A model generated the notes under the pieces. That model searched no databases. It had not been told where the DNA came from and was given only the letters and a program-made list of their open reading frames with translations. Made by a program: the position numbers and the translations under genes. From Bolinopsis microptera (lineage: Eukaryota; Ctenophora; Tentaculata; Lobata; Bolinopsidae): 64,000 nt of DNA. Positions 34,333-64,000 of this stretch are shown here, piece after piece. Within the stretch, counting starts at the first letter, position 1; the number at the start of each line of letters is the position of its first letter. Location of the stretch: NCBI RefSeq assembly GCF_026151205.1, contig NC_087072.1:18460103-18524102 (forward strand), given 5' to 3'.

Positions 34333-34336
34333 TTAA

Positions 34337-35627
34337 AGGATGAGGGGACCTTAGAATTTACTTCCAAATATTCGCGTTTAAGTCCTGTGAAAGTGTGTAG
34401 AATCAAAAAATACGCCGGACTGTGAAATCGATAATTCGTGCAATATCACGCCGCGCTCCTATTGGCTGATAGCAATTTTGGGCTGTGACGTCACTTATGT
34501 TTTAAGACCAACGTGCGCGCGCACCCTTTGCTCGTGTCAACATTTTGTTCTGTTCTGTTTTAATTACGTCGTGTTACCTTTTATTTGGCGTTTGCGAGAG
34601 CGGTATCTTTGGTTGCACTGAATTAGTCTAAGTTACGAATAATTCTCTTTAATAATAATAGTTAAATGTAACTCAGAAAGGCTTTCTTGTAGTTGTAGTA
34701 GGTATTTCTATTTATAAATAGCTAAGATAAGTAGCAACCGCTAACTAAACCACAAACTGCTATTTTGTTTTGACTTGTTTGAAACCCGATATGGACACAA
34801 TTAAAAAGAATGTATGATGTAGTAGAAGACATTTTACTAGCTGGCCCTTGGCGCCTCTAGTCCTATCTGAGTACGCACGTGCGGTTTGACACTGCGCGTG
34901 TACCGGCCTTTAGTTGTACACTCATTTATAATTTACCGTTTTAGTTTGCTGTGACTTGAGTGTAAAGCGTAACGAATGTGGATGTGTTCGTCTGCTATGC
35001 TTGGTATAATATTGCTTGGTGTAATAGTTGCAAATCTTGCTTACGTTATAAGTAGTGTCACATAGTGAGTTAGAACTTAAAAGCTTGGTGCTTGGTGCTT
35101 GTCCAACTGGAATGAAGACATGCATTTCATGCCTACCCGATCCATTTTTATTAGGACCGTGTTGTGTTGATATGACATGTTGATATATCAACTGTGGTAC
35201 GAAACAGGGAGTTGCTAGGTGTTACGTTGGGAGCTATAAATATACATAATTTACATGCCTTTCTGTGTGACTTCAATCTTATTCCAGGTGTATCTCGGCT
35301 CATGGTTATCGTAGGGTGATAATTCTTTTTTCAACCGGTCATAAAAAGTCTCCTCTCCATTGGTTATAGGCTCGTTAGTATCGTAAATTGTTAATTTATT
35401 CTTAATTAGTAATTTAGTCGGCCCGCACGCTCATTTTACCTGTATTTCTATATGCGCGGATCAGAGCAACTCACATAATTGACGTCACAGGTTCAAATTG
35501 TTTTGGCTGGATATCTCGGCGCGCGAATGAAATACAACTTTGCGGATTTCACTAAAGTGGTTTATACGATTAATGTAATAAAAGGATTTGCACGAGAAAA
35601 AAACTTTTTCTAAGGTCCCCTCATCCT
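34337..35627. mobile_element. TTAA-flanked DNA element A (1291 bp, non-coding, piggyBac-type target)
   Basis: TTAA at 34333-34336 and 35628-35631 flanks terminal inverted repeats beginning AGGATGAGGGGACCTTAGA, with the complement at the right end. Subterminal palindromes TGACGTCA lie 149 bases in from the left end (34486-34493) and 140 bases in from the right end (35480-35487). GCGC-rich sequence follows on the inner side of each. No transposase-like frame is visible, so it is a non-autonomous copy. The TTAA duplication suggests piggyBac-type transposition; family assignment is inference. Confidence 0.8.
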
Positions 35628-35631
35628 TTAA

Positions 35632-36947
35632 GATTTCGATGTCATCACGTTTTGGTTAAATTTGTACCAAAGATAACTTTGCTCATCATGAACCATGCCT
35701 AATTTGAGTTTTTCATTTATCATATATCAGTTTTAAACATAAGTGTTTTTAACTATATCTTGACAAGATGTAAAACTTTTAAAGGTTAAATCATGCAAAA
35801 GTAGAACTGGTAACTAAGGATACTAAATTAGAAATGGATAGTCTAAATAATGGGTAGAAACCAGGTTGTGGCAAAACAAATTCTAATATTGTTCAAACTG
35901 AAGTGCCAGGAGACAACTGAATTTTGGTTTGAAAGCCCAGACTACTATAACTGCTTGGTAAGCTAGAGTTGTCTCTTCCAACCGGATAATATCCAGATAT
36001 CAGAGTTTAACGAGACCAATTAAGTTTCGGAATCAATACAATTGACATTTTCTTTGATTATATTTCTCCTATTCTGTTTAAATTTTTGTAGATGTTTGTA
36101 TCATTATTATTTGATTTGATTTGATTTGCTAAAGCATGCCAATAGCTAATCTTTCCAAGTCTACCCAACTACAAGCTAAGTAAAGATCGGATTGTACTCT
36201 AATATTCATACTAATTCGAATTGTGCTTATTTACAAAACTTGAGTTGAAGAACTTGATTTGTTGTAGAAAATATTCTCAATGAAACTAATAAATCAATGA
36301 AACTAATAAATCAATGTTTTAGCTCATTTTACAAAGTCAAATATTTAAAACAATTAAAATTGTATAGTGCTCAATTTGTAAATGACTAGTTGATCTTTGC
36401 TATTGGAAGTTTGTCAAGGACTGGCAGCTAGCGGGGCAAGGAATGCACAGGCTTAGGGGCTTTTGTGCACACCAGAACACTAGCTCGGTAGATTTTTGGA
36501 AACTAGAAGGACTGAAAACTAAAATTGTTTTTGATGGAGGCTGAGGCATGTTTTTGAGAGGGACGGTATAATAGCTTGTGGTAACAACTGGCCTTTACTT
36601 TAATAGGATGAAGTTTTAGTTTTAGGACAGGAAGAAGGCATTAAGAAGATTTGCTCTTTGTTTACAAGGCAGAATATAAGCAATGTTGGTTATAATATGT
36701 ATCAATATCTAGATCTTCGTTTATCAATTTTCACTAAATGGGTTTAAAATTTTAATAGGGAGGGAAATTCATCAACTTTATTAAGTACCTATCAAAAATA
36801 AATCTTATATCAATGTAATATATTAAAAATCATAATCCTAAGTCTAATAATAAAACTGTTAAAAACACTTTCTCACTACACTGCGCTCACACACGTTAGT
36901 AAGACAAAGGAAAATGCACACCCAGCTAATTTTCAATTTCAAGATAA
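35632..36947. other. Intergenic AT-rich DNA
   Basis: No gene or clear element ends seen. A short tandem (gaaactaataaatcaat) lies near 36280-36315. Confidence 0.4.
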
Positions 36948-37196
36948 TCATTTTGGATGTGTGGACCCTAGGGTAGACTTAATGTCAAAATTTAGATTAG
37001 AGCATTCGAAATCTTTGTTTGTCCAATCAAGATCAGCATGGTTATGCTGGTTGACGAGCAGTGATTGCTTCATCCTAGACTTCAGGCAGGCCACACTTAG
37101 ACAGTAGTCACGTATACCAAGCTTAGGCACAATTACGTTCCAATTACGAGTCGTTCTGCTATTGAAGTTGTCAGGGTCTGTCTCTGCGGCAGACAA
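36948..37196 (-). mobile_element. LINE 3'-end remnant (reverse-transcriptase C-terminal domain)
   Basis: An 82-codon minus-strand frame contains FNSRTTRNWNVIVPKLGIRD followed by SVACLKSRMKQSLL. The order (R-T-x-R-x-W-N-x-x-x-P, then S-x-x-x-x-x-K-x-R-x-x) is the usual C-terminal pattern of jockey/CR1-type LINE proteins. No RT catalytic block is present, so the copy is 5'-truncated. Subfamily cannot be given. Confidence 0.6.
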
Positions 37197-38340
37197 GATA
37201 AAAAATCCGTAAAATCAAGAATAGACTTATGTCATAATAATGAACTATTGAGTGACACAATTGAAGAATCACTAGAGACCACTGACAATAACTGACACAA
37301 CCTATCATCATCATCTCCCAGTTTTGCAGAAAAACCATTATCACTCAGGATGGAAATTGGTGGCTGCAGGATCAAAAATATTAGATTTAGAGACGTTGAT
37401 TAGCGTTATTACTATAAACTAGTTCAACAAAAATTTAGTGCACAAGCTCACAAATTAAAGTACGCCAAACTTCTACTCACATTGTGAGCACTTTTAAAAA
37501 AGGAAGATGATGAATTTTTGTGTTTCAATAATCCATCTACAGAACCTATCAAGTACACCAACTATTATATCAGTAGTATAGTGCTATTAAAGAATAAGTT
37601 GTTTCCGGCTGTTCAAGATATATGCACTGGGAGAATAAGTAAAACAAAGTTTTATTTACAACAAACCTGACATGTGTCAGTTATATCATAAATGCCGTCA
37701 TGGACCATTAAAGACCGTTTTGAACAGCAAAAATAAATCGCAATACAAAAAACATTTCATCATTGATCATGAATTGTGAATAGTAAATATGTTCACTCTT
37801 GCAACGAAATATCTAGGGTTTGATAACAAATGATTAATTGGTATTGAAGTGTTGTACATGTAAATCATCGATGGAAATTTGTATTACAAAGCCAATAATG
37901 AAAACTAAACACTGCACTGAAAAGTAAACTCCAGGTATAATGACAAATAATTGAACATAAAATATTTAAAGCATCAAATAAAAGAAATAATAAATTTAGC
38001 AATAATATTTTGCATTATTAAGAAAATAACAATTTCAAGAAATTGAATAGACCAAAGGCTATAATAAAAAATACCATATTACTTTAACTATAAAATGTGA
38101 ATTTAAAATATTTATTAATTTTAGTTTCTAATAATAAATGAATTGGCTAATACAAAGCTTAGCTGTTCTATTTTACAAAATTCATTTTCAAATCGATAAT
38201 TATTTTAAAAACACCTTAACTATTCAAATTAATTCAAAATTAAATACAGAATTGACTGCAGACACGCGTTTTATTAAGCGCGCGGATCGAGCGCGCGCCG
38301 GCAACATCATAAAAAGGATACAAAATTATATGTAAAAATA
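37197..38340. other. Intergenic, very AT-rich
   Basis: No gene, element end or repeat unit that I can support. Confidence 0.4.
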
Positions 38341-38359
38341 AATAATTTACCATTTTTAA

Positions 38360-38905
38360 TGATTTGGCCCGGCGCGCGCTACTTCGTAGCACTTGCCGTC
38401 GAGAAGAAAGTGGCGCGCGCTACTTCGAAGAAATTTAGACGAGTAACATCCGTCAAATAAGTAATCGACGCGATATTAAATTTTATATAATAGAAACTTT
38501 AATTTGGCGTTTGGATTCAGGATTGGCTCACCTGGCCTTTTGCTTGGGATCACCCCAGGCTATTATGTTCATGAACATAGCCTGGCGTAATTGAATCCTC
38601 TAAAACGCGCAAGTAGGTGCGTTTTTGTAGCGCGATGCGTTACTGTGCCGCGCCGCGCACTCAATGAGGCTTCTCACAGCGAAATGCGCTACTGTGCCGC
38701 GCCGAGCTGAGATGAATTGACATCGTCAATTAAGTGATCTGTTGCGCGCCTGTAATCAGTTCTGAACGATCACGTGAATGCTAATCACGTGCGCTTTAAC
38801 TATAACATCTATGAGCATTCGCATTTATTTACAGAGCGATGGAGGTCGAATAAACATTTGGCGGAATGACACGCGCTCACTAAATCGCTCGCCCAAACTT
38901 TTTTC
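38360..38905 (+). repeat. GC-rich dispersed repeat, copy 1
   Basis: A CpG- and GCGC-rich island in AT-rich surroundings. gcgcgcgctacttcg occurs twice near 38375 and 38410, and gctactgtgccgcgcc twice near 38640 and 38685. Parts recur in inverted orientation about 10 kb away: gaagaaatttagacgagtaa near 38427 is complementary to sequence near 48757, and the aaatcgctcgcccaaac segment near 38881 to sequence near 48168. Nothing coding is recognisable. Confidence 0.6.
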
Positions 38906-39264
38906 ATTCAACTGCTAACGCGTATTTTCGCATTGGATAAATTGCAAAATTGTTTTGACTATCAGGAGTGCTCGTTCTTCCTTATATATAATATATGTAC
39001 GTCTTTACACTTTGCTTCTCGGAGGAAGAAAGCAGCAGTCTCTCTTATGGCATTGTGGCGCATGGAAACATATCAACCTAGTTTGCAGTCAAGGGCGTGG
39101 TAGATACTGTTTACATTTCCACGGGCACATTTAGAGGGCACTCCTTGGATCTTCCTTACAGCCCAATTGTATTTCAATTTTATTACACCTTATTACACCT
39201 TATATTCAGTTATTCTATACTTTATATTTGACTATACACTTTACTCGATTAAATTCTGTGATGC

Positions 39265-39648
39265 ATGATCACAGGTATGTTAATTTCGACTTCGAGTGAT
39301 TCAAACTTAAAGTTCATCGCCAATGGCCAATTTGTGCTTTCGTTAAAAATTTCAGATTTACTGCCGTGTTTTTGTTGGGTTGACCGTTTTGTGGAAATCT
39401 ACCGGATCAGGACGACTCAAGCCATTCGTGTCCTACTAAAGCTTCATCAAAAACAAGGTACATATATGTACACCTTCATCATTCAACTCCGGCATCTATC
39501 AATCACGATTTTTCACTATCAGTGTTTCATACATCTTAAAGCAGTGTCACTTCGTTATAAGCAGCTTTATATCTGGTTTCGATTTTTAGTTACATTTTTG
39601 AGGTTTTATTTGAAGTGTCGTTTTTTTCACCAATTTGCTGGTTTGTAA
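39265..39648 (+). other. Unassigned 127-codon open frame
   Basis: The first half reads like a soluble protein (STSSDSNLKFIANGQFVLSL, RTTQAIRVLLKLHQKQG); the second half is a hydrophobic and aromatic composition typical of AT-rich non-coding frames. No family, splice partner or promoter is evident. It may belong to the adjoining repeat. Confidence 0.15.
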
Positions 39649-39900
39649 AATTGTGCCATTCACAGTTTAAGTCTACATCATTACCTTGGCGGCTTACTTA
39701 GTAATATCGATTGACAGCAATTTAATCATGGAAATGTTAGATGAAAACTCAAATTATTTGTTGTTACTCTTTATATATTATGGTAGTTCTTGTTCTCAGT
39801 CATTTTATGCAATTTATTTAAGCTGACTATCAAAACCTTCCCCAACTTGTTTAAACATAATATCATTTGAAATCATAATTGGAAAATCTATACATATACG

Positions 39901-42466
39901 TATATGGACACGTTCATTTGAGTTTGAGGATATTGGTAAACAAAAATAATAGCGTTTTTGACGATAGTGGCTTAATTTTGACATCTATTAACCTAGCACG
40001 TTCAGAAGTTCTGAACATTAGCCACGTAACCCATACTCCCATATGCACTGCTCAGAAAGAAAATCTATTGTTGTTAGGCACTATAATGTTTCAAATGTCA
40101 CATTTTGTGTGACTTAGTTAACTGCAGTTGTCTAATTATCATTCCTTGGTCTGAAATATAGTAGATTAGGTCAATCTAACAATTATGATACAACATTGGT
40201 TAAAGGGCACGGATCGAACGGTTACAAGGCAATATTTGGGTAACTTTGTCACACTCAGAATACCATACCTCTATTCTAGGTGTCCTCAAAACCCTTTTAA
40301 CTCATTATTTGATGGTTGATCTACCAATCATAGTCCTAAAATATATTGTTTTGAGTAGTTAGCTAATACAGGCACTTGGTTATTGGGAAATGAGGTTAAT
40401 TCTGTCACAATATATGGATTTTTAAATTTGTGGCGAATTTTTTATATCTGATTTTGGTTTGAAAGGCGGGAAAACTTTATATGATGACAATGTAGTTGAT
40501 GCAAGTTAAGATCAGTTGATGTTTACATTCAACATTGTCACAAAAAATGATACGAAATCGTAAATAGGTTAAAAACAATGATTATAGAATGAAATAGTCT
40601 CTTATAATAACTCTTATAATAACTGATGTGACAAAGTAAACATGTCTTGCCCCTATTTTGAAGATCTATATAATATTTTATAACTCCTATCTATTAGAAT
40701 TCAACATTCTTTCAGAAAAAATTGGTAGAATATAGTCCAGAACATCAGAGCTCAAGTTTAACAATTTTAGGTTAAATTTGTCAAAGTCACTAAAAATGTG
40801 ATAAAATTAACTTTTCCTGCCACAACAATTTCAAGATAGTGTGTTAAAATTGGCATAGGATGCTTTATTGCCTATATTAATCGATCCAAACTACGAAAGA
40901 ATATAAATGTTAATGTGATGACGATTACCTAACTCTAATAATAACTGATGTGACAAAGTAAAGATGTCTTGCCCCTATTTTGAAGATCTATAACTCTATT
41001 AGAATTCAACATTCTTTCAGAAACGATTGGTAGAATATTGTCCAGAACATCAGAGCTCAAGTTTAACAATTTTAGATTAATTTGTCAAAGACACTGAAAA
41101 TGTGACAAAATTAACTTTCCCTCCCCCAACAGTATCAAGATAGTGTGTTAAAATTGGCATAGGATGCTTTATTGCCTATATTAATCGATCCAAACTACGA
41201 AAAAGATCTGTTGACCTGGAAAAATCGTCAAAAAAAGAGGTCCAAGATTTTCAAAATCGAATAAAAAATTTTTAAAGGCCTCGAAATTCTAAAAAGAGTG
41301 AAATCTTCTAAATGGTCCTTAGAACATATCCTGAAAGTTTCAAGGTGATTGCTCAAAAAATGTAGGAAAAGATAGATCTTTAGGGCGCGCGATTGAAAAT
41401 CGCTTGCGCAATACAATTACACATGAGCGCTGACCTTTGACCGGTAATAATTTCGTCTAGGAACAATATTTTTCCATGGGACCAAAAGTAGCAGATAGAT
41501 ATCACTCCCCTCTATTAGAAACAACTATAAAATCAATTTCGAGAGAAATTTCATGAATATCTGATGACGATTACCTAACTCTTATAATAACTGATGTGAC
41601 AAAGTAACATGTCTTGCCCCTATTTTGAAGAACTATACCTCTATTAGAATACTATGTTACTTTATCATCAAAAAAATTTCGATTAACTAGTTATTTTGCC
41701 AGCAAGGAGCTAACAGAGTTATAATAATTTTGTTGTCACGAAACTATTTTTGACCATGTTGCGGTAGTTTAATTGTAACACAGTTAACATATTACCACCC
41801 GATAATGATTTATGTGACTGGTGCATGGTACTAGCAGTATTGTTTGATCCATAGTACGTATTATAAGGGCTTTAAGCTAGTATATCATTATTTTTTCAAT
41901 TTCACACATGTTCAGATATCATCAAGATTATGTGACAAAGTAAACTTGTTTGTGCCTTCTGTGTTTAAATTCCTCACACTATATGATATAATAACAATTC
42001 CTAGCACTTCCAGGCCATCAAATAAACCTACATTACTCAGTATTGCTTATCAGGGTGCCCTAAATATTCTTCACATATTTTCTTAAATGTGTGACAGAGT
42101 AAACCTGAGTGCACCATCTAACGAAAAATTCGTCAAATATGTAGGTAATGGTCATATGTACCCATCCAATCAACTGGACATTCAAAAATTTGGTCACAAA
42201 CGGCAGCAAGGGGTCCATATTTACTCCGTCACATGTTTATAGTGTGACAATGTAACCATTTCCGTGCCGGCCGTATTTAAACAATATCTTATCACCTGAT
42301 TAAGATATCGTTATGTGACAAAGTTAGCGAAGAGGATGAGACGATTATCCTAACCATCAAGGGTTTGTGTAATTTCATAGTGTGACAAAGTCAACTACAC
42401 TGTTCCTTTTAATAGGGTCACTTATATTTACCAATATCCTCAAACTCAAATGAACGTGTCCATATA
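39901..42466. mobile_element. 2.6 kb unit bounded by perfect 40-base inverted repeats and filled with TGTGACAAAGT motifs
   Basis: Positions 39901-39940 (starting tatatggacacgttc) and 42427-42466 are perfect reverse complements. Between them the motif TGTGACAAAGT(A)AAC or close variants occur at least ten times on either strand, for example near 40243, 40624, 40947, 41590, 41930, 42090, 42245, 42312 and 42380. Part of the interior is tandemly duplicated: about 330 bases starting near 40610 repeat from 40935, and a partial third copy starts near 41563. A related end sequence recurs near 45207-45264. No transposase frame or target duplication is evident, so calling it a transposon is inference. 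Confidence 0.55.
41213..41556. mobile_element. Half copy of the TTAA foldback family seen at 59132
   Basis: This segment runs from the hairpin centre (ttgacctggaaaaatcgtc) through tgctcaaaaaatgtagg, gcgcaatacaattacac and agatatcactcccctct, matching the right arm at 59507-59857. The G/C-rich tip and the TTAA flank are missing, so the copy is truncated. It is embedded in the repeated region at 39901-42466. Confidence 0.75.
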
Positions 42467-42621
42467 GTTTACTAGTTAGCTCTTACTCTTAGCGCTTACT
42501 AGTTTAGCTCTATCTGGTCCCCTGCTACACGGCATGTAAACAATGATTGGCCAGTTAGAGGCGGTCCGTGTAGGCCATATACAGTATACACTGTGCTATC
42601 AGCTATACCTATAATTATATA

Positions 42622-42804
42622 TAGTTCTTTTATTCAAATTTCTGATTGTTTCTGAATAGACTCAGTGAAGACAAATTCTAATGGAAATAAATAGCTGAAT
42701 AACGTATCGACATTTCTACGTCATACTCACATTCTCAATAAATGTATTTAATTGTAGTTGTGAAAATAGTTAAAAACTATCAGAAATTTGAATAAAAGAA
42801 CTAT
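42622..42804. mobile_element. MITE with perfect inverted ends, probable TA target
   Basis: The ends agttcttttattcaaatttc at 42624 and its complement near 42782-42803 are perfect over at least 23 bases, with about 140 AT-rich bases between. A TA dinucleotide flanks both ends, as in Tc1/mariner-type insertions. It has no coding capacity. Confidence 0.7.
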
Positions 42805-43962
42805 AAAATCATGAGACTCAATAACACTACACAAATCCACCAGATTATATATAATATATAATAATATATAATAAATAGTTGTTGCTTGGTTTCCCAAAGA
42901 GAGTGCTCCTTAAAATACTCAAACTCAGATGCCCAACATAACTGAACCAGCAATATGAGTTATCATGTAGAAAGAAAACCAATCTCACTGTTCAATTCCC
43001 ATTAAAAGATGATTGGGAACTGGGTTTTACTATCCCAGTTAATGTTTACTAAAAATAGATATTGAACACCAGATTATATATAATATATAATATATTTAGA
43101 TCTTCTAAAATCTGGAGCACGTCATAGCGCCAAAACTCAAGCTTCTTGACTACTCCAATAAAACATTTGATAACTCGCATCTATTACAAATAATACACTA
43201 CGAACAATGTATACACTTTTATATATTTAAAATCCTCGTCCAAACTTGTTGTCTTCAATATCTGACTTGAAATTAGTGTACTGCTTCTTGACGACAAGAA
43301 TATGCTGATTACAGTGATCCTCTGCACTATATAAATTTGTGCATACATCCATGTGCATACTTGTTTTAAAAATATGAATTTGATAATATACATCACATAA
43401 TATCATTAAGGGGTATATCATCAAGGTTTGATAATTTTTCGTTCATACTTCATGTTAACACTCCTATTATGGTTGGAATTGATTAATACAAGAAATAGAG
43501 CAGCTTATACCAATTCTCCGCATTAAATTTATATTGTTGGGGCACAAAATGTTTTTTATTCTATCACATTTTCAGTGACTTAGCGAAATTTAAATTAACA
43601 TTTTTAAGTTAAACTTAAGCTCTGATGTGCTGGACAATAATCTACCAATCATCGCCAAACATTATCTTATCCAGAAAAAAACACAGTCACGCCTTGATCG
43701 ATCTTATTAATATTTTGACAAGAACCATCAATAGAGCAGTTGTATTCAGATATAAAAATGGCTTTTTGCTGAATTGTATGACTTACTGGAATTGCTAATA
43801 ATGACTAAAATGCTGAAAACAGTTACTCACTCCAATATCTACTAGTGTAATGTGAACAATATTTGAGCAAAATATGGTGAAATCAATGGAATTAGTCAAT
43901 TGGAGGTTAAAATGGTTTGCTGATTTTTGGCACTCGGTTTAATTTTATTTTGAATTGGAGTT
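42805..43962. other. AT-rich intergenic DNA with duplicated palindromic AT tract
   Basis: caccagattatatataatat occurs near 42838 and again near 43068, each followed by more AT palindrome. No genes seen. Confidence 0.4.
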
Positions 43963-44005
43963 GACGAAGTGAGAGTCTCCACTCAGTGGAGACTCTCACT
44001 TAGTC
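43963..44005. repeat. 21-base-arm palindrome next to the CCCGGT element
   Basis: The arms gacgaagtgagagtctccact and agtggagactctcacttagt(c) are separated by a single C at 43984. The inner 17 bases of each arm pair perfectly and one mismatch lies further out. It could form a cruciform or, if transcribed, a stable hairpin. Confidence 0.8.
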
Positions 44006-44022
44006 AATCCTATGTACAAATC

Positions 44023-44907
44023 AGGTGACCGGGAATCCCGGTACCGGGAATCCCGGTACTGGGATTGGCAATTTTGAGCTATCCCGGTCCCGGTCCCGGT
44101 CCCGGTCAACCGGGTCAAGTCACATTTTTCATCCCGGTCCCGGTCCCGGTCAAATGCTGATTTATGATCCCGGTCCCGGTCCCGGTCCCAGTTAGTTCAG
44201 GATTCTTGGTCCCGGTCCCGGTCTCGGTCCCGGTCAATCACTCAAATTTGCTGGGATTTTGACCGGGATCTTTTACATAATTTCATTCACTGTGATTTTA
44301 AGTTTTTACTTTCATTCATTGTGAATTTCATCTTTAAACAACCTCTGAGCCAAATAAAACAATGTTTAAAATTGCTAAACAAGTTTAGGTAACTAATATC
44401 GTTACATAACTCATAAGTGCAGACTAATTGTCAATTGGAATTGGAGAATGAAACTGTTGAATAATTTGAGGGATCATTGATTGAGGAATGAGGAATGAGG
44501 GTGAACTTGAGTAATCAGTACATGAACATTATTGGTGTAGTACATTAGGCCCATGCCCCATATTGACGGTTTTTTTTTTGTTTTTTCTAATTTAATATTG
44601 TAGTTATTACTTATTCAAATTGTTCAATTATAATGTAAATGAAAGTTGCAGCTTTCAATATGAGAACACCAGTTTTGGTCCCGGTCATCCCGGTCATCCC
44701 GGTCACATCCCGGTCATCCCGGTAAAATTGGATTGTTGGTCCCGGTCCCGGTCCCGGTAAGATAGAAATCCCAGAAATTATTGGTCCCGGTCCCGGTCAC
44801 GGTAAATTGATAATCTCAGTCCCGGTCCCGGTCCTGGTCAAGTCACATTTTGTATCCCGGTCCCGGTCCCGGTCCCGGTCAGGCCTAAAATCATGTCCCG
44901 GTCACCT
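44023..44907. mobile_element. Element with inverted ends and subterminal CCCGGT hexamer arrays
   Basis: AGGTGACCGGGA at 44023-44034 and TCCCGGTCACCT at 44896-44907 are perfect inverted ends. Just inside each end are many short runs of GGTCCC/CCCGGT (44085-44240 and 44680-44890), broken by unique AT-rich spacers, with an AT-rich core at 44270-44660. Dense subterminal repeats next to short inverted ends are typical of hAT-like elements, where they bind transposase. No transposase frame is present and I see no clear 8-base target duplication, so the superfamily is inference. Confidence 0.65.
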
Positions 44908-44937
44908 CCTGTTATGTTATAAAACCGTTCATCTGGA

Positions 44938-45900
44938 GTTAAACCATACATCTAAAGTTTACATCATCCTGTACCCTATCATGTACATTCCTGATTCCCG
45001 GAATCAGTGATTCCGGCTTATTCGACATTCACATTATATGCCTCCTCAGAAACAGCAATGTGGTGACCGGCTTTCATTTTTTATTGGCGCACTTCAGTTT
45101 TTACTCTGTCATCAGTGCCACCGGAAGGTAATAGTATTCTTTGGTTAGTTTTTATAGTGTACATACAGACATAATCTTTCAAATTATTACAATGATATAT
45201 TGTGCCTTTAATAGGGTCACTTACATATATTTACCAATATCCTCAAACTCAAACATGTCCATATATATTACGAAAAATATCGTTATTAAGACTCCGGCAT
45301 TTGGCAAATATATGAAAAGCTATAATGATACGTTCTACTTTCTTTCCAAATGCCGTACAGCATTTATTTAGTTAGGTGAACCTACTGTCAAGAGTTGAGG
45401 AACAGCTAGGCTGGTTGTAATCCGCTGCTAATCCAGTTATATTCCCGGAGTTGGAATTTTAAACAAGTTCTATTTTATGCGAACTACACTGTTGTATCAG
45501 GCAAAGTTCATATAATGAATGTCGAATAAACCGGAATAAGGAATGTAAGGTACATGATAGGGTACAGGATAATGTTAACTTTAGATGTAAGGTTTAATAT
45601 AACGTTAACTCCAGATGTACGGTATTATAACATGATGATAACTCTAGATGTAAGACACAAGGTAATGTTAACTCCAGATGTAAGACACAAGCTAATGTTA
45701 ACGTCAGATGTAAGACACAAGTTAATGTTAACTCCAGATGTAAGACACAAGGTAATGTTAACTACAGATGTAAGACACAAGTTAATGTTAACTCTAGATG
45801 TAAGACACAAGGTAATGTTAACTACAGATGTAAGACACAACCTAATGTTAACTCCAGATGCAGATGTAAGACACAAGGTAATATTAACTACAGATGCCAA
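44938..45900. repeat. Inverted repeat of about 95 bases plus a 30-base tandem array
   Basis: 44938-45044 and 45509-45600 are imperfect reverse complements, sharing atcctgtaccctatcatgta, attccgg and attcgacattca in opposite orientation. From about 45560 to 45900 a 30-base unit (acacaaggtaatgttaactc plus cagatgtaag) repeats about eleven times with point changes. Because the unit is a multiple of three, both strands stay open, giving a spurious decapeptide repeat (VRHKLMLTPD). A diverged inverted unit also occurs near 44925-44960, tying the array to the inverted-repeat arms. Confidence 0.8.
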
Positions 45901-46210
45901 GTAAGAGGTAAGGTAAACTTTAAATTTGGGGCAGAAGGTAATGGGATAGCTCTACACAATTATTAATTGTCTTATTATATTCCATATGTTAATATGGAAT
46001 TGATAGCATGTTCGCAAACACGAGTATTAAAGTAATCCATTGTTAATTGTGCCTCTGTAGATCAAAATTTAAAATTTGTTGACAGAATCGTCGAATGAGA
46101 AGTTACAGTTTACCATCTGCAAAGTTTTAGTTACAGGTCTCAAATATGAAACATGGCTTATATGTTATAACTGTATAACTGATTTTTGTACTCCCTAATT
46201 TTCAGAGGGC

Positions 46211-46534
46211 ATGAAAATGAGAAAGATAAAGAAGAACGGCTCGACGAAGAAAGAAGGAAACATTGACGGAGATCTAAAATGGGTGGAGGAAAATATCCCA
46301 TCAACTCTTGGAGACACGTACGAATATTTGTTTTTTCTAATTTCCATTTTAGGCTTCACCATATAACATACTTTGTGGCGAATTTTCTTTTACAATCACT
46401 AATCGATCAGTTATAAAATAATTATCATTAATTAGATACCTTATTATTATTATTATTTCAGTGTGTTCGAGAAACTTATGGACTCGGATGAAGAGGTCGA
46501 ACACAGAAAATACGAAATGTCCAAAATGCAGTGA
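46211..46534 (+). CDS. Small two-exon gene, or last two exons of a gene, family unknown
   Basis: Exon 46206-46317 follows a good acceptor (ccctaattttcag) and ends at donor GTACGA. Exon 46462-46534 follows ttattatttcag and ends at TGA 46532-46534. The phase-2 junction agrees. From the ATG at 46211 the product is 59 residues: a Lys-rich basic start (MKMRKIKKNGSTKKEGN), then an acidic, helical second half (WVEENIPSTLGD, FEKLMDSDEEVEHRKYEMSK). Since an acceptor precedes the first exon, this is probably the 3' end of a longer gene whose upstream exons I could not place among the repeats. No domain is recognised. Confidence 0.55.
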
Positions 46535-46540
46535 AACATA

Positions 46541-46746
46541 TTACCATACCAACTGGTTACCACAGCAACTGGTTACCACAGCAACTGGTTACCATAACAA
46601 CTGGTTACCATACCAACTGGTTACCATACCGACTGGTTACCATACCAACTGGTTACCACAGCAACTGGTTACCACAGCAATTGGTTACCATAACAACTTG
46701 TTACCATACCAACTGGATACCATACAAACTGGTTACCACAGAAACT
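46541..46746. repeat. 16-base tandem array in the 3' UTR of the small gene
   Basis: About thirteen copies of ggttaccacagcaact and near variants (cagc, tacc, taac) begin within ten bases of the TGA at 46532-46534. The unit length is not a multiple of three, so the open frames through it are chance. Confidence 0.9.
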
Positions 46747-48159
46747 GCTTTAGTATTGCTTTAGGACTCATTTTTCCGATTAATTTTATTGTATGGAAGC
46801 AGTTTAATTTATTTTCGTAGATTTCACTCAGTCTGTAAAACTAAAACCCATGAAACACTGGAGTATTTGGAGAATTTGGAGTATTTGACCAATGGTTGTA
46901 GTTGCGATTCTGATTTTGATAAATGTAGACGTTTTCAACAGTGTGCACATCGCTGAGTTTTATTTTGAAACCAAGGATTTTTATAAAGATTACAGTTTGG
47001 TGTGAGAATAATTCGAAAAACGCTGGTCGAAAAATGTTAACGTAAATATTTATTAATTTTCACCACAAACTTTTGATTATGTACAGCTGGACTTGATGAT
47101 CACGTAAACATTCGGACTTCATTTATAAATAACCAACTTATCTCTTTTATTTAATGATATTGAACAGAAATTAAGACAACTCGACCAGCAACAACAGGCG
47201 ATACGTGTTTATTTTACTGTAGAGTAATTGATATTATTTCATGCATGCTTTAGTAGTTTTGGAATTGATAAAATTCGACCGAGAAAAATCGTCAGATTTA
47301 AAACAAGTTTTCATTTCTCACGGGGCAGAATTAATATCATGATTAAAGTTAGATTTCCTCTTAATTGAACATACAATGCACTTCCCACGAGTTACCCCCG
47401 TTTTGGTCGAATTAATGTTAATGTCTTTCGTGTTAATGGATTTGCTTTCGGGGATACATTATTATTTTTTTGAGCTCAATCGTTGCTAAAATTTGCTAAC
47501 ATCTTGTTACATTTGTTAATGTCAATTTGTCCTTGATAAATGAATATATCTTCACTTCTCTTAAACTAATAAGAAAGATGCGTTAACAAACCCAAACTAA
47601 ATTGCATGATGAAAAAAGTGCCACGCCCTATTTAAGGGTGTTAACTGTTAAATGATAATGCTTGTAAAAATTACCGATTTGTCAAAGAAATTCTATAGGT
47701 CGAACATAAGTGTATAAATAGATTCATGCATAATTATGACAAGAAGTTCGATTATTGTTCTGAACTGATAGCAAATGGTAAAATAGGTACCAAGAAGATT
47801 TAATGGTCCCATTTTCTGTAAAACATTTTATTTGTTTTGTAGAATGGCCTATTCTTGTGTCATACTTGGCTTAGAAAACGCTGTCTTCTTTCGTTCCTGA
47901 TTGTCTCACAAAATTCATCATCTAGATATAAATTTGATCATTACTGATAAATAGAGTTCTGATATCTATAGACCTATCAAGCCTTTTTTATGATCCAAAA
48001 TGGCAATATCTGGTCTCTGAAAACCACAAATATTGACTTATCCGCGGGCGCGGAACGTTTTGAGTGAACTTTGCTAGTCCAGACCATGTGGTTCGCCGGT
48101 GCTAAAATTATCACAGATAACTAACGCGCATTTAGGAGACGCGCAAAAGTTGAAATTGT
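46747..48159. other. Intergenic AT-rich DNA
   Basis: No gene, transposon end or RNA gene recognised. Confidence 0.4.
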
Positions 48160-48775
48160 TATTACGGTTTGGGCGAGCGATTTAGAAAGAGCCGGAATGA
48201 CAGGCTAGGAGCGCCGCTCAAAAAACCTGGCCTGGACCGGGAGCCCTTAAACGTTTTGATTCAGATCACAATGTCAATCCTTCATAGCCCGGCGATACTG
48301 GGCCGCGCTCAGCCTGTCATTCCGCCGAATCTCTATTCGGCGAGATTCTATTCTATTATTATGAACGTAATAGCCGGCCTGAGCACTGAAGTCCCCAAAC
48401 AAATCTCGGCGAGGCCCAGTGATGCATCTCGCCGATCTACGGAAGATGCACGGCGCGGCCCAGTAGTGCATCGCGCTACAATTAAATTCCATGCCACCCA
48501 GAAAGGATTGACTTGCCAGGGTTTTAGTTAATAGTTATGAGGTAATTATAAGCCTAAATTGTGAAATTAGTGTGTTGTGTAAAAGATGAAAAGCAAGCAA
48601 AGCAATTTTATATTGCGTTACCCGGCACGTCAGTCGTCAATCCTTTACATAGCCACGCGTCTTCGCGTACTGCGTGACGCGCTTGTTACCTGTGCCATGC
48701 CGCCTTCGGTGGTCGCGCGCTACTCACAGGGGGGCTGAAACTTGACGGATGTTACTCATCTAAATTTCTTCATCA
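48160..48775 (-). repeat. GC-rich dispersed repeat, copy 2, inverted relative to copy 1
   Basis: CpG-rich segment with gggcgagcgattta near 48168, gtcattccgccgaat near 48317 and ttgacggatgttactc near 48757. Each is complementary to a segment of the copy at 38360-38905, in the reverse order. Frames open through this segment are a by-product of its GC content. Confidence 0.6.
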
Positions 48776-48904
48776 TCACTAATATCTGCAAAGTGTCATC
48801 GCACTACATGGAAAAATATACAGTAACTATTTCTCCATCAAATTTAAAAGTTATAATTTATCAAATATTAATCATAAATAACAACATCATTAAAAATTTT
48901 TAAT

Positions 48905-49385
48905 TTATTTATACTTCCCAGTGGAGTAAAGATTTATAAAACGTTTCTTTGCTACATAAGGATGAAACCAAATATAATCATTGTGTTTTTCCTTATTACT
49001 GACATGATTGGTACCTTCAATTCTTGTTAAAACTTCTTTCGAAACATTCCAAAAATGAAAGTCATTATGAATACATTTAGAAATCATATCCTTTTTAAAA
49101 CTTTCCAATCCAATTTTAAAACTCAAAACTGTCAAGCAGTTCTTTAACTCCGAATAGAAGGGAGTTTGTTCCAAAAAGGAACAACCCGCTCTGGAAGAAA
49201 AAAATACTGAAGATTCTTGACTTTTGTCACACTCTTACTACATCTATCGGATGAAACCAGATTAAGACCTGATCTGCTTGGTCTGAACAAGTCTGAACCA
49301 TAATCAGTCAAACCACTAATAACCTTAAAAGCTTCAATAAGGTCCCCAGCGTTGTCAAATTAAGGATTTCTAATCTACGGCTGTA
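48905..49385 (-). mobile_element. CR1/jockey-like LINE 3' end, copy A
   Basis: Reading the minus strand with small frameshifts gives the LINE C-terminal signature in order: YSRRLEILNLTTLGDLIEAF, then RVVPFWNKLPS, then FKIGLESFKKDM. The tail segment WFHPYVAKKRFINLYSTGK is nearly the same as in copy B at 52585, so the two are copies of one family. It has stop codons and lacks the catalytic RT region. Confidence 0.8.
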
Positions 49386-49548
49386 AGGAAAGTAAAAGTA
49401 AAGTAAAGTTTGCACTATGTGAAAAAATATATAATAAATATTTCCCCACCAACATTTATTATCTATCAAATACAATATTTAAAAACAATTTTATCAAAAA
49501 CAATTTTATCAAAAACAATCAACATGTGCAAGAACTAGACCATATGGC

Positions 49549-49944
49549 ATGCAAATACTAGGCCATAAACATTTTGAAAAGGAGCATACGAAACCCATTT
49601 TTAATAGGTTAAAAATTCTTACGGCTCAAAACTTGTACAAATATCACTGCATTTTAGAATTCTCTAAGATTATCAAGTACCACTGCCCATACTCCCTTTA
49701 TGAGGCTATCAACATTTCAAACCGTGCAACGAGTCTAACAGTTATTCTTCTAAATAAATCAAATACCTTTTTGTTTAATGCAGCAAAGCTTTGGAACACT
49801 GTTCATAAAAAAATTTTAACTTCAAGCAATTGTCTAGAAACTTCCATTAACTTGATAAAATTGAGAACGAAAGCACTATTAATACAATCACAGGCTGCTG
49901 ACTTAAAAGAGACTTGGACTCCAAACAATTTTAAGTTACAGTAA
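49549..49944 (+). mobile_element. LINE reverse-transcriptase C-terminal remnant, different family
   Basis: A 131-codon plus-strand frame includes KPIFNRLKILTAQNLYKYHC, then NKSNTFLFNAAKLWNTVHKK. A P-L/I-F-x-x-L-x-I-L-x-x-x-x-L-Y motif followed by G/A-x-K-x-W-N is usual at the end of LINE RT proteins. It runs opposite to the LINE copy at 48905 and shares no sequence with it. Confidence 0.65.
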
Positions 49945-50238
49945 TTTAATCTAATTGCAGCGGCACATAACATAATTTAAACTATTGCTATCATTATTGT
50001 ACTACAGACTGAAAATATCTCAGATCTATTTTGGGCGTTTTTAACAACTTGTAGTTGTAATTCTTAAATATTAGATATCCTAATTTATAACTTTTTAATC
50101 AGAGTGAATTAATAATTGATATTTGATAATTTATTTATTTGATAGTTTAGTCTGATATTGATATTAATATTGATTATATTGATATTGTTATTATTGAATG
50201 AAGCTAACTCCAGACATAAATAATACTACTTCTATTAA

Positions 50239-52265
50239 AGGACCAGTTAACTGAAAAATTTGTAGTCTCCAATTTGGCTAAGATTTAAATCAGCTGTGAC
50301 AAACTGGTAAAGAATCGTATCGCCGAAAGAACCAACTCTCTAGCGTACGTGTAACGCGTGTTATTGCAATAATAAGCTGTGGCCTCGTGACGTCACGAAG
50401 TCCCTCAGTGCGCGCTGGCATAGCGTAATACGTTGCAAATGTTTATCGTTGTCATTAAAACACGTGTTACTCACTCAAATTTTAGAATTATGACTATTAC
50501 CCGAGTTCTCCAAAATCCTTATAGTTTTGGCTATCATCCTAACTAAAGGAATAGCTGATTGGATGTACAGTGCTCACGTCATGATTTTAAACAGTGATAT
50601 AGGTTCTTGGACAGAGGCGGGTGAATGTACGGTTAGAAAGTTTCTGCTATTACAGTTCTTATGTCATATGTGATAATTTTGGATTGTTTTCATTGCTTAA
50701 TTACACAAGCAGGGAGACTGTACCGATTATTTTTCCCCAGTCCATGAAACTCTAACGAGTTTAAAAGGATCTAGATAAGTAGGAGCTAGTTTGTTCAATT
50801 CCGAGAGCAATTATATTTATAGCATAGCGAAATTTCTAACTTTAATCTGCATGTGTCAGCCAGTACAGGAGACAAGAAGTCTGGCTACTTTACGGCCGTT
50901 CCTCTGGGACCATTAGTAGAAGTAGCTTCTATCAGAACAGTGCCGTGGGAACAGAATTCCCGCCAAAATACCCGGTCTACCAAATAGTAATAGTGATTGG
51001 AGTGTACGGTGTGCGGTGTGTTACAGTTTTGAATTATACTTCGGCTTACCTAGCTGTTATCCTAATTGCATTATCATCGGTACATAACATAAATAAACTA
51101 CTGGTAAGTTTAAATACCAAGTGCAAACGTGTTCAGTCAATCGACCCACTGAACAAATATAGAATTTCCAAGATCCTATTATTCTTTTGCCATATATTAA
51201 TACGGCACGATCGATTGTTAGATGGTTAAACGACTATACAATTCTAAAACTATGAGCTAGCACTTTAATCTAAAAATACACTTTTTATATTACTCCTGAT
51301 TTTTACATTTCACGTAAAACATTGTCGCCACAGGTTGATCATGGACACTAACAGCTTAATTTGATATAAATGACTATGAGTTTCTCTAAAGTTAACTCTA
51401 AAGTTGTGTAATCCAGTCATTTATGGACATTTATGGAAATGAACCTGCAAATGTTCAGATACTCACGAAACTTTGCACAGACCTTCCCGAAGGTATGAAT
51501 AAACGATTTTCGTTTGGAGACATTTGTTTGACAGTGGAGAAAACCCAGGAGGACCACGCCCATATTGACCCAATAACGTAACCGACCCCTTGCTTCTGAA
51601 GGTCGTAGAGACTTCAAAATAGGCTTAAACGAAGCCACATATGCATGTTTATATAGGAGTTATCGAGCAACACATGGCCTAAAATCCTTACTTTTCGAGA
51701 AATTCGCCAAAAACCATTTTGGGCGTGGTGCTGAGCCCATTTTCGATAGGATCGTGATAGAGTCTTTAGACACTAGACAGGGTGCAAAAGAACCGCAATT
51801 AGCATATTAATATATGACTTACGAACAAACATATGCCTTAAAGTGCTTACTTTTTCAGTTATTGGCGAAAAACTGATTTTCGGTTCCAGAAATCATGCAA
51901 AACTATGGGTATCTGGTAAATTGGGCTATGAAGGCCCTAAAGGTTTTTGAATGTGTGCAAATTGTGCAGAATGGCCATGTTTATATACAACTTATGAAGC
52001 AACATGTACCCTAAATTACTTACTTTTCGAGTTATTCGGGGAAAAACATTGTATTATGTCCATTTTCTACCTGTAAAATACATTCTCACGAGCTCCTCTG
52101 CGCGCGCAAGGGACTTCGTGACGTCATCGCCAAAATAATACAAACGCTATTTACACGCGTTAGAGAGCAGTTAGAGATTTAGGAATTTCGACTCGTTGCT
52201 TAGTTTGCTATTTGTCACAATCTGTCAAAATATGAGTATAACTTTTTTTTCAGTTAACTGGTCCT
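50239..52265. mobile_element. TTAA-flanked DNA element B (2027 bp, non-coding, same design as element A)
   Basis: TTAA at 50235-50238 and 52266-52269 flanks inverted ends AGGACCAGTTAACTGAAAAA and complement. TGACGTCA lies 149 bases from the left end (50388-50395) and 139 bases from the right end (52119-52126), each followed inward by CGAAGTCCCT and GCGCGC. The interior from about 51640 to 52050 holds three diverged copies of a unit of about 170 bases containing atgtttatata, ttatcgagcaaca and cttacttttcgag. No transposase frame is seen. Confidence 0.8.
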
Positions 52266-52273
52266 TTAACAAA

Positions 52274-52462
52274 GGGACTTGGAGTATAAACGACCAATTT
52301 TGCATAATTGTCTTTCCAACCAAGAATTCAGGAGGCAAGGGTGGGTGCGTAAACTTTATGGTCTGCACTCTCAGATCCTGTATCACCCTGGATTCATTTC
52401 GACGTATTTTTGGTAAAAGTATACATATACTTTCTGGTCACTCTCTTGCTACTCCAAGTCCC
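52274..52462. mobile_element. Short MITE with 13-base perfect inverted ends
   Basis: gggacttggagta at 52274-52286 pairs with tactccaagtccc at 52450-52462; 189 bases in all. It lies five bases from the TTAA flank of element B. It is non-coding and no clear target duplication is seen. Confidence 0.6.
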
Positions 52463-55708: not shown

Positions 55709-63520
<7,812 letters not shown>

Positions 63521-63688
63521 GTAAGTAATTATCTTATTAAGTAATTACTACATTCCTTTAACTGGATATCTTAGAGTATACACCAGGTGGCATGTTTTAG
63601 TGCCCTCTTTTTTAAGGTAACATACAAGTGTTAGACATATAGACTGACGTTACATTATTTCTAAACTATCTTACTGGATGGCTTTTAA

Positions 63689-64000
63689 GGGGGCAGGGGG
63701 GGTCTTTATGAAATTTCTCTCGAAATTGATTTTATAGTTGTTTCTAATAGAGGGGAGTGATATCTATCTGCTACTTTTAGTCTTTTAGTCAAAGGTCAGC
63801 GCTCATGTGTAATTGTATTGCGCGAGCGATTTTCAATCGCGCGCCCTGAAAATCGAGTCTAAAAATCTATCTTCTCCTACATTTTTTGAGCAATCACCTT
63901 GAAACTTTCAGGATATGTTCTAAGGACCATTTAGAAACTTTTGCTCGTTTTAGAATTTTGAGATAGGCCTTTAACAAATTTTTATTCGATTTTGAAAATC
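63689..64000. mobile_element. Start of another TTAA foldback element, cut by the window end
   Basis: TTAA at 63685-63688 is followed by GGGGGCAGGGGGG and the same arm sequence as 59132-59480, in the same orientation, but missing about 40 bases near 63786. It runs to the window edge, reaching the attcgattttgaaaatc segment near the hairpin centre. It lies in the WDR intron after exon 14. Confidence 0.85.

Follow-up and report, generated by a model that had tools for sequence, protein, structure and literature searches.

Within a 64,000-nucleotide stretch of the genome of the ctenophore Bolinopsis microptera (contig NC_087072.1, positions 18,460,103 to 18,524,102; this whole stretch is called the window below), two TTAA-flanked elements, here termed A and B, carry the same 8-bp palindrome, TGACGTCA, at almost the same distances from their ends, raising the question of whether this placement is an accident, an inheritance, or a working part of the elements. 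The palindrome is the CREB/ATF site, as the first-pass annotation of this DNA had also named it. The end geometry described in that annotation was correctly observed and is nonrandom, and the matching motif distance in two families suggests that the palindrome may be a shared docking site used in transposition. The parts of the two elements, in window coordinates, are as follows:

34333..34336: left TTAA of A, a target duplication; a single TTAA stands at the empty site of another A copy
34337..35627, plus strand: element A, a nonautonomous TTAA element of 1291 bp belonging to a multicopy family
34337..34356, plus strand: 20-bp terminal inverted repeat at the left end of A, 100% complementary to 35608-35627
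34486..34493: TGACGTCA at the left end of A, with 149 bases between the end and the palindrome
34515..34522: GCGCGCGC box of A, 21 bp inward of the left palindrome
35454..35458: GCGCG box of A, 21 bp inward of the right palindrome
35480..35487: TGACGTCA at the right end of A, with 140 bases between the palindrome and the end
35608..35627, minus strand: 20-bp terminal inverted repeat at the right end of A
35628..35631: TTAA on the right of A
50235..50238: left TTAA of B, a target duplication; one TTAA stands at three paralogous empty sites
50239..52265, plus strand: element B, a nonautonomous TTAA element of 2027 bp lying inside another repeat
50239..50258, plus strand: 20-bp terminal inverted repeat at the left end of B
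50388..50405, plus strand: left arm of the subterminal inverted repeat of B (18 bp), its first 8 bp being TGACGTCA (50388-50395) at offset 149
50410..50415: GCGCGC box of B, 14 bp inward of the left palindrome
52100..52107: GCGCGCGC box of B, 11 bp inward of the right palindrome
52109..52126, minus strand: right arm of the subterminal inverted repeat of B (18 bp), in which TGACGTCA occupies 52119-52126, leaving 139 bp to the right end
52246..52265, minus strand: 20-bp terminal inverted repeat at the right end of B
52266..52269: TTAA on the right of B

The coordinates, the flanking TTAA, and the offsets of 149 bases on the left and 140 (A) or 139 (B) on the right are exactly those of the first-pass annotation, giving the two elements a common polarity as they are oriented in the window. 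The inverted ends are perfect over 20 bp, reading AGGATGAGGGGACCTTAGAA in A and AGGACCAGTTAACTGAAAAA in B, and the terminal letters AGGATG and AGGACC account for all four of them. Beyond AGGA the ends differ, as had been claimed: each family has its own 20-bp repeat, and A compared with B is near the shuffled level. In B the palindromes form part of the perfect 18-bp subterminal repeat, and in A they lie in a 28-bp repeat (82%). A GC-rich box, also remarked on earlier, follows inward of the palindrome at four of four ends, at the spacings listed above.

Chance is a poor account of this arrangement. The window holds eight copies of TGACGTCA, where shuffled sequence leads one to expect 0.67. Across 304 kb of one contig, made up of the window and 240 kb of neighboring sequence, there are 16 copies of TGACGTCA and 60 TTAAAGG sites, and an inward-lying TGACGTCA within 1 kb is found at 4 of those 60, namely the four ends of A and B. 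When one mismatch in the palindrome is permitted, the bin at 135–149 bp inward of TTAAAGG holds four sites, all of them from A and B, and every other bin up to 390 bp holds none to two. The other 12 TGACGTCA sites have no AGG-ended TTAA at the right distance, and no TGACGTCA lies in the remaining TTAA-flanked inverted pairs listed for these 304 kb, save a pair at 59543-63970 that was rejected as an element because it wrongly joins arms belonging to two foldback copies. Given how often TGACGTCA occurs outside A and B (12 in 300,682 bp), the probability that four ends would each have a palindrome within 250 bp is approximately 9e-9, a post hoc estimate that assumes independence and does not yet count the matching offsets.

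Both elements have many relatives. Genome searches with queries carrying 100 bp of flank returned 157 first-look candidates for A and 1282 for B, and among the 40 scored for each element there were at least 32 further full-length copies of A and at least 34 of B; dozens have thus been seen, and the total probably runs to hundreds. Identity of the full-length copies listed is 93–99% for A and 94–100% for B. In 29 of 32 A copies and 33 of 34 B copies, the match extends across the full TTAA at each side, although the intactness of each TTAA is not visible in such a listing. For A, matches start at query positions 84-104 (28 of 32 at 97-104, TTAA being 101-104) and end at 1394-1404 (TTAA 1396-1399); for B, they start at 88-101 and end at 2130-2141 (TTAA 2132-2135). 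At one place, G000:C7:9398319-9403319, two B copies lie in opposite orientation about 0.9 kb apart.

Empty sites were sought with a chain of 12 left flanks, 40 of 548 candidates being scored, and all five that were fetched have a single TTAA. The flanks of the window copy of B, joined through one TTAA, equal three of three paralogous empty sites with no mismatches over 160 bp, and the flanks of two other insertions, one B-type (C10) and one of A (C3), each equal an empty site bar one mismatch. Since the empty sites carry one TTAA, TTAA is duplicated on insertion, as the first-pass annotation had supposed, and the insertions are recent. A and B are therefore two recently active multicopy families that insert at TTAA and duplicate it. 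The window copy of B sits in another dispersed repeat (flanks at 50155-50238 and 52270-52373), whose left flank is found identical at at least 17 other places.

The geometry recurs among the copies. It is kept in all 13 whose ends were read: the ten fetched left ends all have TTAA and AGGA, with the palindrome at 149 and differing bases in the 20 positions outside, and the three long interrupted copies read whole all have palindromes at 149 and at 139/140; in one of the latter (L046), TTGA replaces TTAA at the left. In the stretch from terminal repeat to palindrome, the left and right ends of the same element resemble each other weakly (z 3.5 for A and 3.8 for B), and comparing this stretch between A and B gives z values of 1.7 (left with left), −0.2 (right with right), 2.6 (left of A with right of B), and 0.0 (right of A with left of B). 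The spacers of A and B are thus near the shuffled level, so that the shared motif stands out from diverged surroundings; the features common to both families are the AGGA start, the terminal-repeat length, the palindrome with its spacing, and the GC box.

An autonomous partner was sought among longer copies, located by pairing left-end with right-end matches. In a 7.97-kb pair (L043, C4:15527863-15535869), A is interrupted, with a 6-bp overlap, by a near-perfect palindrome of 6.7 kb that is either a giant foldback element or an assembly artifact, and each arm of which has a 229-residue frame with one C2H2 zinc finger slightly under the Pfam cut-off. The 2.9-kb insert that interrupts A in L046 (C2, 4.2 kb) has 30-bp inverted ends, and B is interrupted in L045 (C8, 4.1 kb) by a 1.36-kb palindrome and a 0.75-kb insert. 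A further pair, L074 (C11, 2.5 kb, of which 1.3 kb was read), consists of B and an extra segment of about 490 bp. The inner 9 kb of L044 (C9, 11.3 kb) contains frames of a non-long-terminal-repeat retrotransposon and 195 bp of B. This retrotransposon lies at 3408-8191 of L044 on the minus strand; the first of its frames has a match to 2OG-Fe(II) oxygenase (E 7e-19) and another, below the cut-off, to GDSL lipase, and the next encodes an endonuclease and a reverse transcriptase.

We propose, with slightly better than even confidence, that A and B are nonautonomous Kolobok-like elements in which the palindrome would act as a subterminal binding site, in the manner of P-element subterminal repeats. 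Because they join TTAA to an AGGA terminus, they are most likely moved by Kolobok-type transposases supplied in trans; a transposase with DDE, THAP, and H2CH domains would be expected in an autonomous Kolobok member. Each end has two parts, a family-specific 20-bp terminal repeat and, some 140–150 bp in, a subterminal inverted site centered on TGACGTCA and followed by the GC box. We assume that the transposase uses the 20-bp repeat to cut where TTAA meets AGGA, and the palindrome, by analogy with the P element and with PGBD3 and MER85, would be a probable dimer-binding site that helps to assemble both ends into one complex. Its binder may be the transposase or a host basic leucine zipper (bZIP) protein of the CREB/ATF kind, between which the sequence cannot tell; a host factor serving several transposases would explain one site in families with differing terminal repeats.

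Several results weigh against this proposal. No transposase was found in A, in B, or in the five longer copies (three read whole, two partly), where frames not submitted to Pfam were judged by eye; for A and B, a Pfam scan of 6 out of 27 stop-to-stop frames listed gave only two weak matches below the cut-off, to zf-C2H2_12 (E 0.053) and FIGL1_N (E 0.16). These five belong to a larger set of long pairs, in which C9:3588124 (4.0 kb) and C4:4918782 (4.1 kb) also figure. Copies without TGACGTCA, which the first-pass annotation had expected to be missing if the site is functional, were indeed absent among the 13 copies, yet such uniformity is weak evidence and no sign of selection, because the copies are young. 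The independent sample for the geometry is two families only. A candidate third, decayed family (L052, beginning TTAAAGGACAACG and with TGACGG at offset 149) failed: matches to it elsewhere begin at query positions 154-169 of 241, leaving TTAAAGG and nearly all the sequence up to TGACGG outside the repeat, and the agreement in offset is therefore chance. The motif TTAAAGGA is not in excess genome-wide, with 7155 + 7073 sites against 9541 + 9603 for its backward control, and the palindrome was found in the first 226 bp at 0 of 28 TTAAAGGA sites, taken in listed order and many of them probably not element ends. Finally, THAP sites in P and Galileo lie about 40–70 bp from the end (PMC3688188, in excerpt), nearer than 149, a position that would be uncommon for a THAP site. 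As a separate observation, a tandem array with a 29-bp period at G000:C1:1986851-1987206 has TTAAAGGA in each unit.

Other accounts of the palindrome must be set beside this one. It might be a promoter element, a cyclic AMP response element (CRE) of the ancestral transposase gene, present at both ends since the ends are inverted copies and without a role in transposition. The left end of A does have a promoter-like look, with ATTGG and TGACGTCA close together beside the GC box, and elsewhere in the genome a promoter-like stretch holds three TGACGTCA in the space of 100 bp (L010, 6484-6583; two of the three are 14 bp apart, around ACGCGT). One end would suffice for a promoter, however, and nonautonomous copies need none, whereas the motif has been kept at both ends and at matched distances while its surroundings changed; we consider this account unlikely. 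That A and B are merely old derivatives of one ancestor, their palindromes kept by chance, would accord with their equal left/right polarity, with the equal 20-bp length of their terminal repeats, and with the weak likeness of the two ends within each element noted above. Against such descent without function, divergence between A and B in terminal repeats and spacers has reached nearly the shuffled level, yet all four 8-mers are intact, which makes it a decidedly improbable explanation.

The first-pass annotation had looked instead to a piggyBac-type transposase, which on this reading would bind the subterminal palindrome, and TTAA duplication, as found in A and B, is a piggyBac trait too. 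Terminal repeats of piggyBac elements usually start with C, and those of A and B, which start with AGGA, may depart from that type. The human PGBD3 transposase does bind an internal 16-bp palindrome of MER85 (PMC3459987, in excerpt), but TTAA with AG termini is described for Kolobok (PMC6004289, in excerpt), which matches A and B better. We regard the piggyBac link as very unlikely and return to the Kolobok-like reading. If the palindrome is a required site, it would amount to a two-part end rule for Kolobok-type TTAA elements; if it is recognized by a host bZIP protein, A and B would be linked to host signaling and their copies would spread CREB/ATF sites through the genome. Overall, the data suggest that A and B are TTAA elements of an ordinary kind that have been active recently; the end design common to both is of interest, and its function is putative.

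Other repeats lie nearby in the window. A large TTAA-flanked foldback palindrome at 59128-59861 has the ends GGGGGCAGGGGGGG and no TGACGTCA, with partial copies at approximately 41200-41500 and 63680-64000, and a 763-bp structure with inverted ends (TTTGTTAAGCTCATTTG) lies next to TTAA at 57162-57924.

Among known systems, A and B fit a placement, made from their ends, as Kolobok-like nonautonomous elements. Kolobok is recognized by TTAA together with an RR terminus; in Xenopus, AG termini are described for ten full-length elements and, along with TTAA, for autonomous Kolobok elements, one subfamily of which has AGGACATGTCAACCCC (PMC6004289, in excerpt). All five empty sites attest to TTAA duplication by A and B, and all four of their ends have the AG dinucleotide. 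Like Kolobok and the T2 miniature inverted-repeat transposable elements (T2-MITEs) of Xenopus, they combine TTAA duplication and an AG/AGG terminus with multicopy nonautonomous derivatives; autonomous elements have been described in Xenopus, in contrast to the copies of A and B read here, in which no transposase was found (PMC6004289, in excerpt). T2-MITEs have many homogeneous nonautonomous copies, as A and B do, and begin AGGRR, whereas the fifth base is T in A (AGGAT) and C in B (AGGAC); A and B are thus not strict T2-MITEs, although the autonomous Xenopus elements A3 and A4 also have AGGAC (PMC6004289, in excerpt). Neither TGACGTCA nor the word "subterminal" occurs in the Xenopus paper (PMC6004289). 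The literature searched, which did not extend to Repbase and so does not establish absence, gave no description of subterminal sites in Kolobok-type TTAA elements and nothing tying TGACGTCA to Kolobok, what was found on TGACGTCA being mostly about CREB. Papers that contain TGACGTCA alongside transposon, TTAA, or MITE vocabulary were the PGBD3 paper (PMC3459987), one on a pine miRNA, and one on the GRAF promoter.

For the layout of the ends, the closest parallels come from other superfamilies. The P element and the zebrafish THAP9 element likewise have terminal repeats and a separate short subterminal inverted repeat, of 11 bp with spacers of about 100 bp in the former and 12 bp with 400-bp spacers in the latter, and P-element ends are polar, as are those of A and B (PMC7776569, in excerpt). 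Both make 8-bp duplications rather than TTAA, and the comparison made here is one of layout (PMC7776569, in excerpt). MER85, the nonautonomous piggyBac element of PGBD3, shares with A and B the TTAA target, nonautonomous copies, and an internal palindrome, in its case bound by the transposase, and the title of the PGBD3 paper connects the transposase fusion protein with AP-1 proteins (PMC3459987, in excerpt). It differs in its 13-bp terminal repeats, in the sequence of its palindrome, and in the palindrome's position, with 3 bp between it and the 5' repeat and 96 bp between it and the 3' repeat, as against 139–149 bp from the ends in A and B (PMC3459987, in excerpt).

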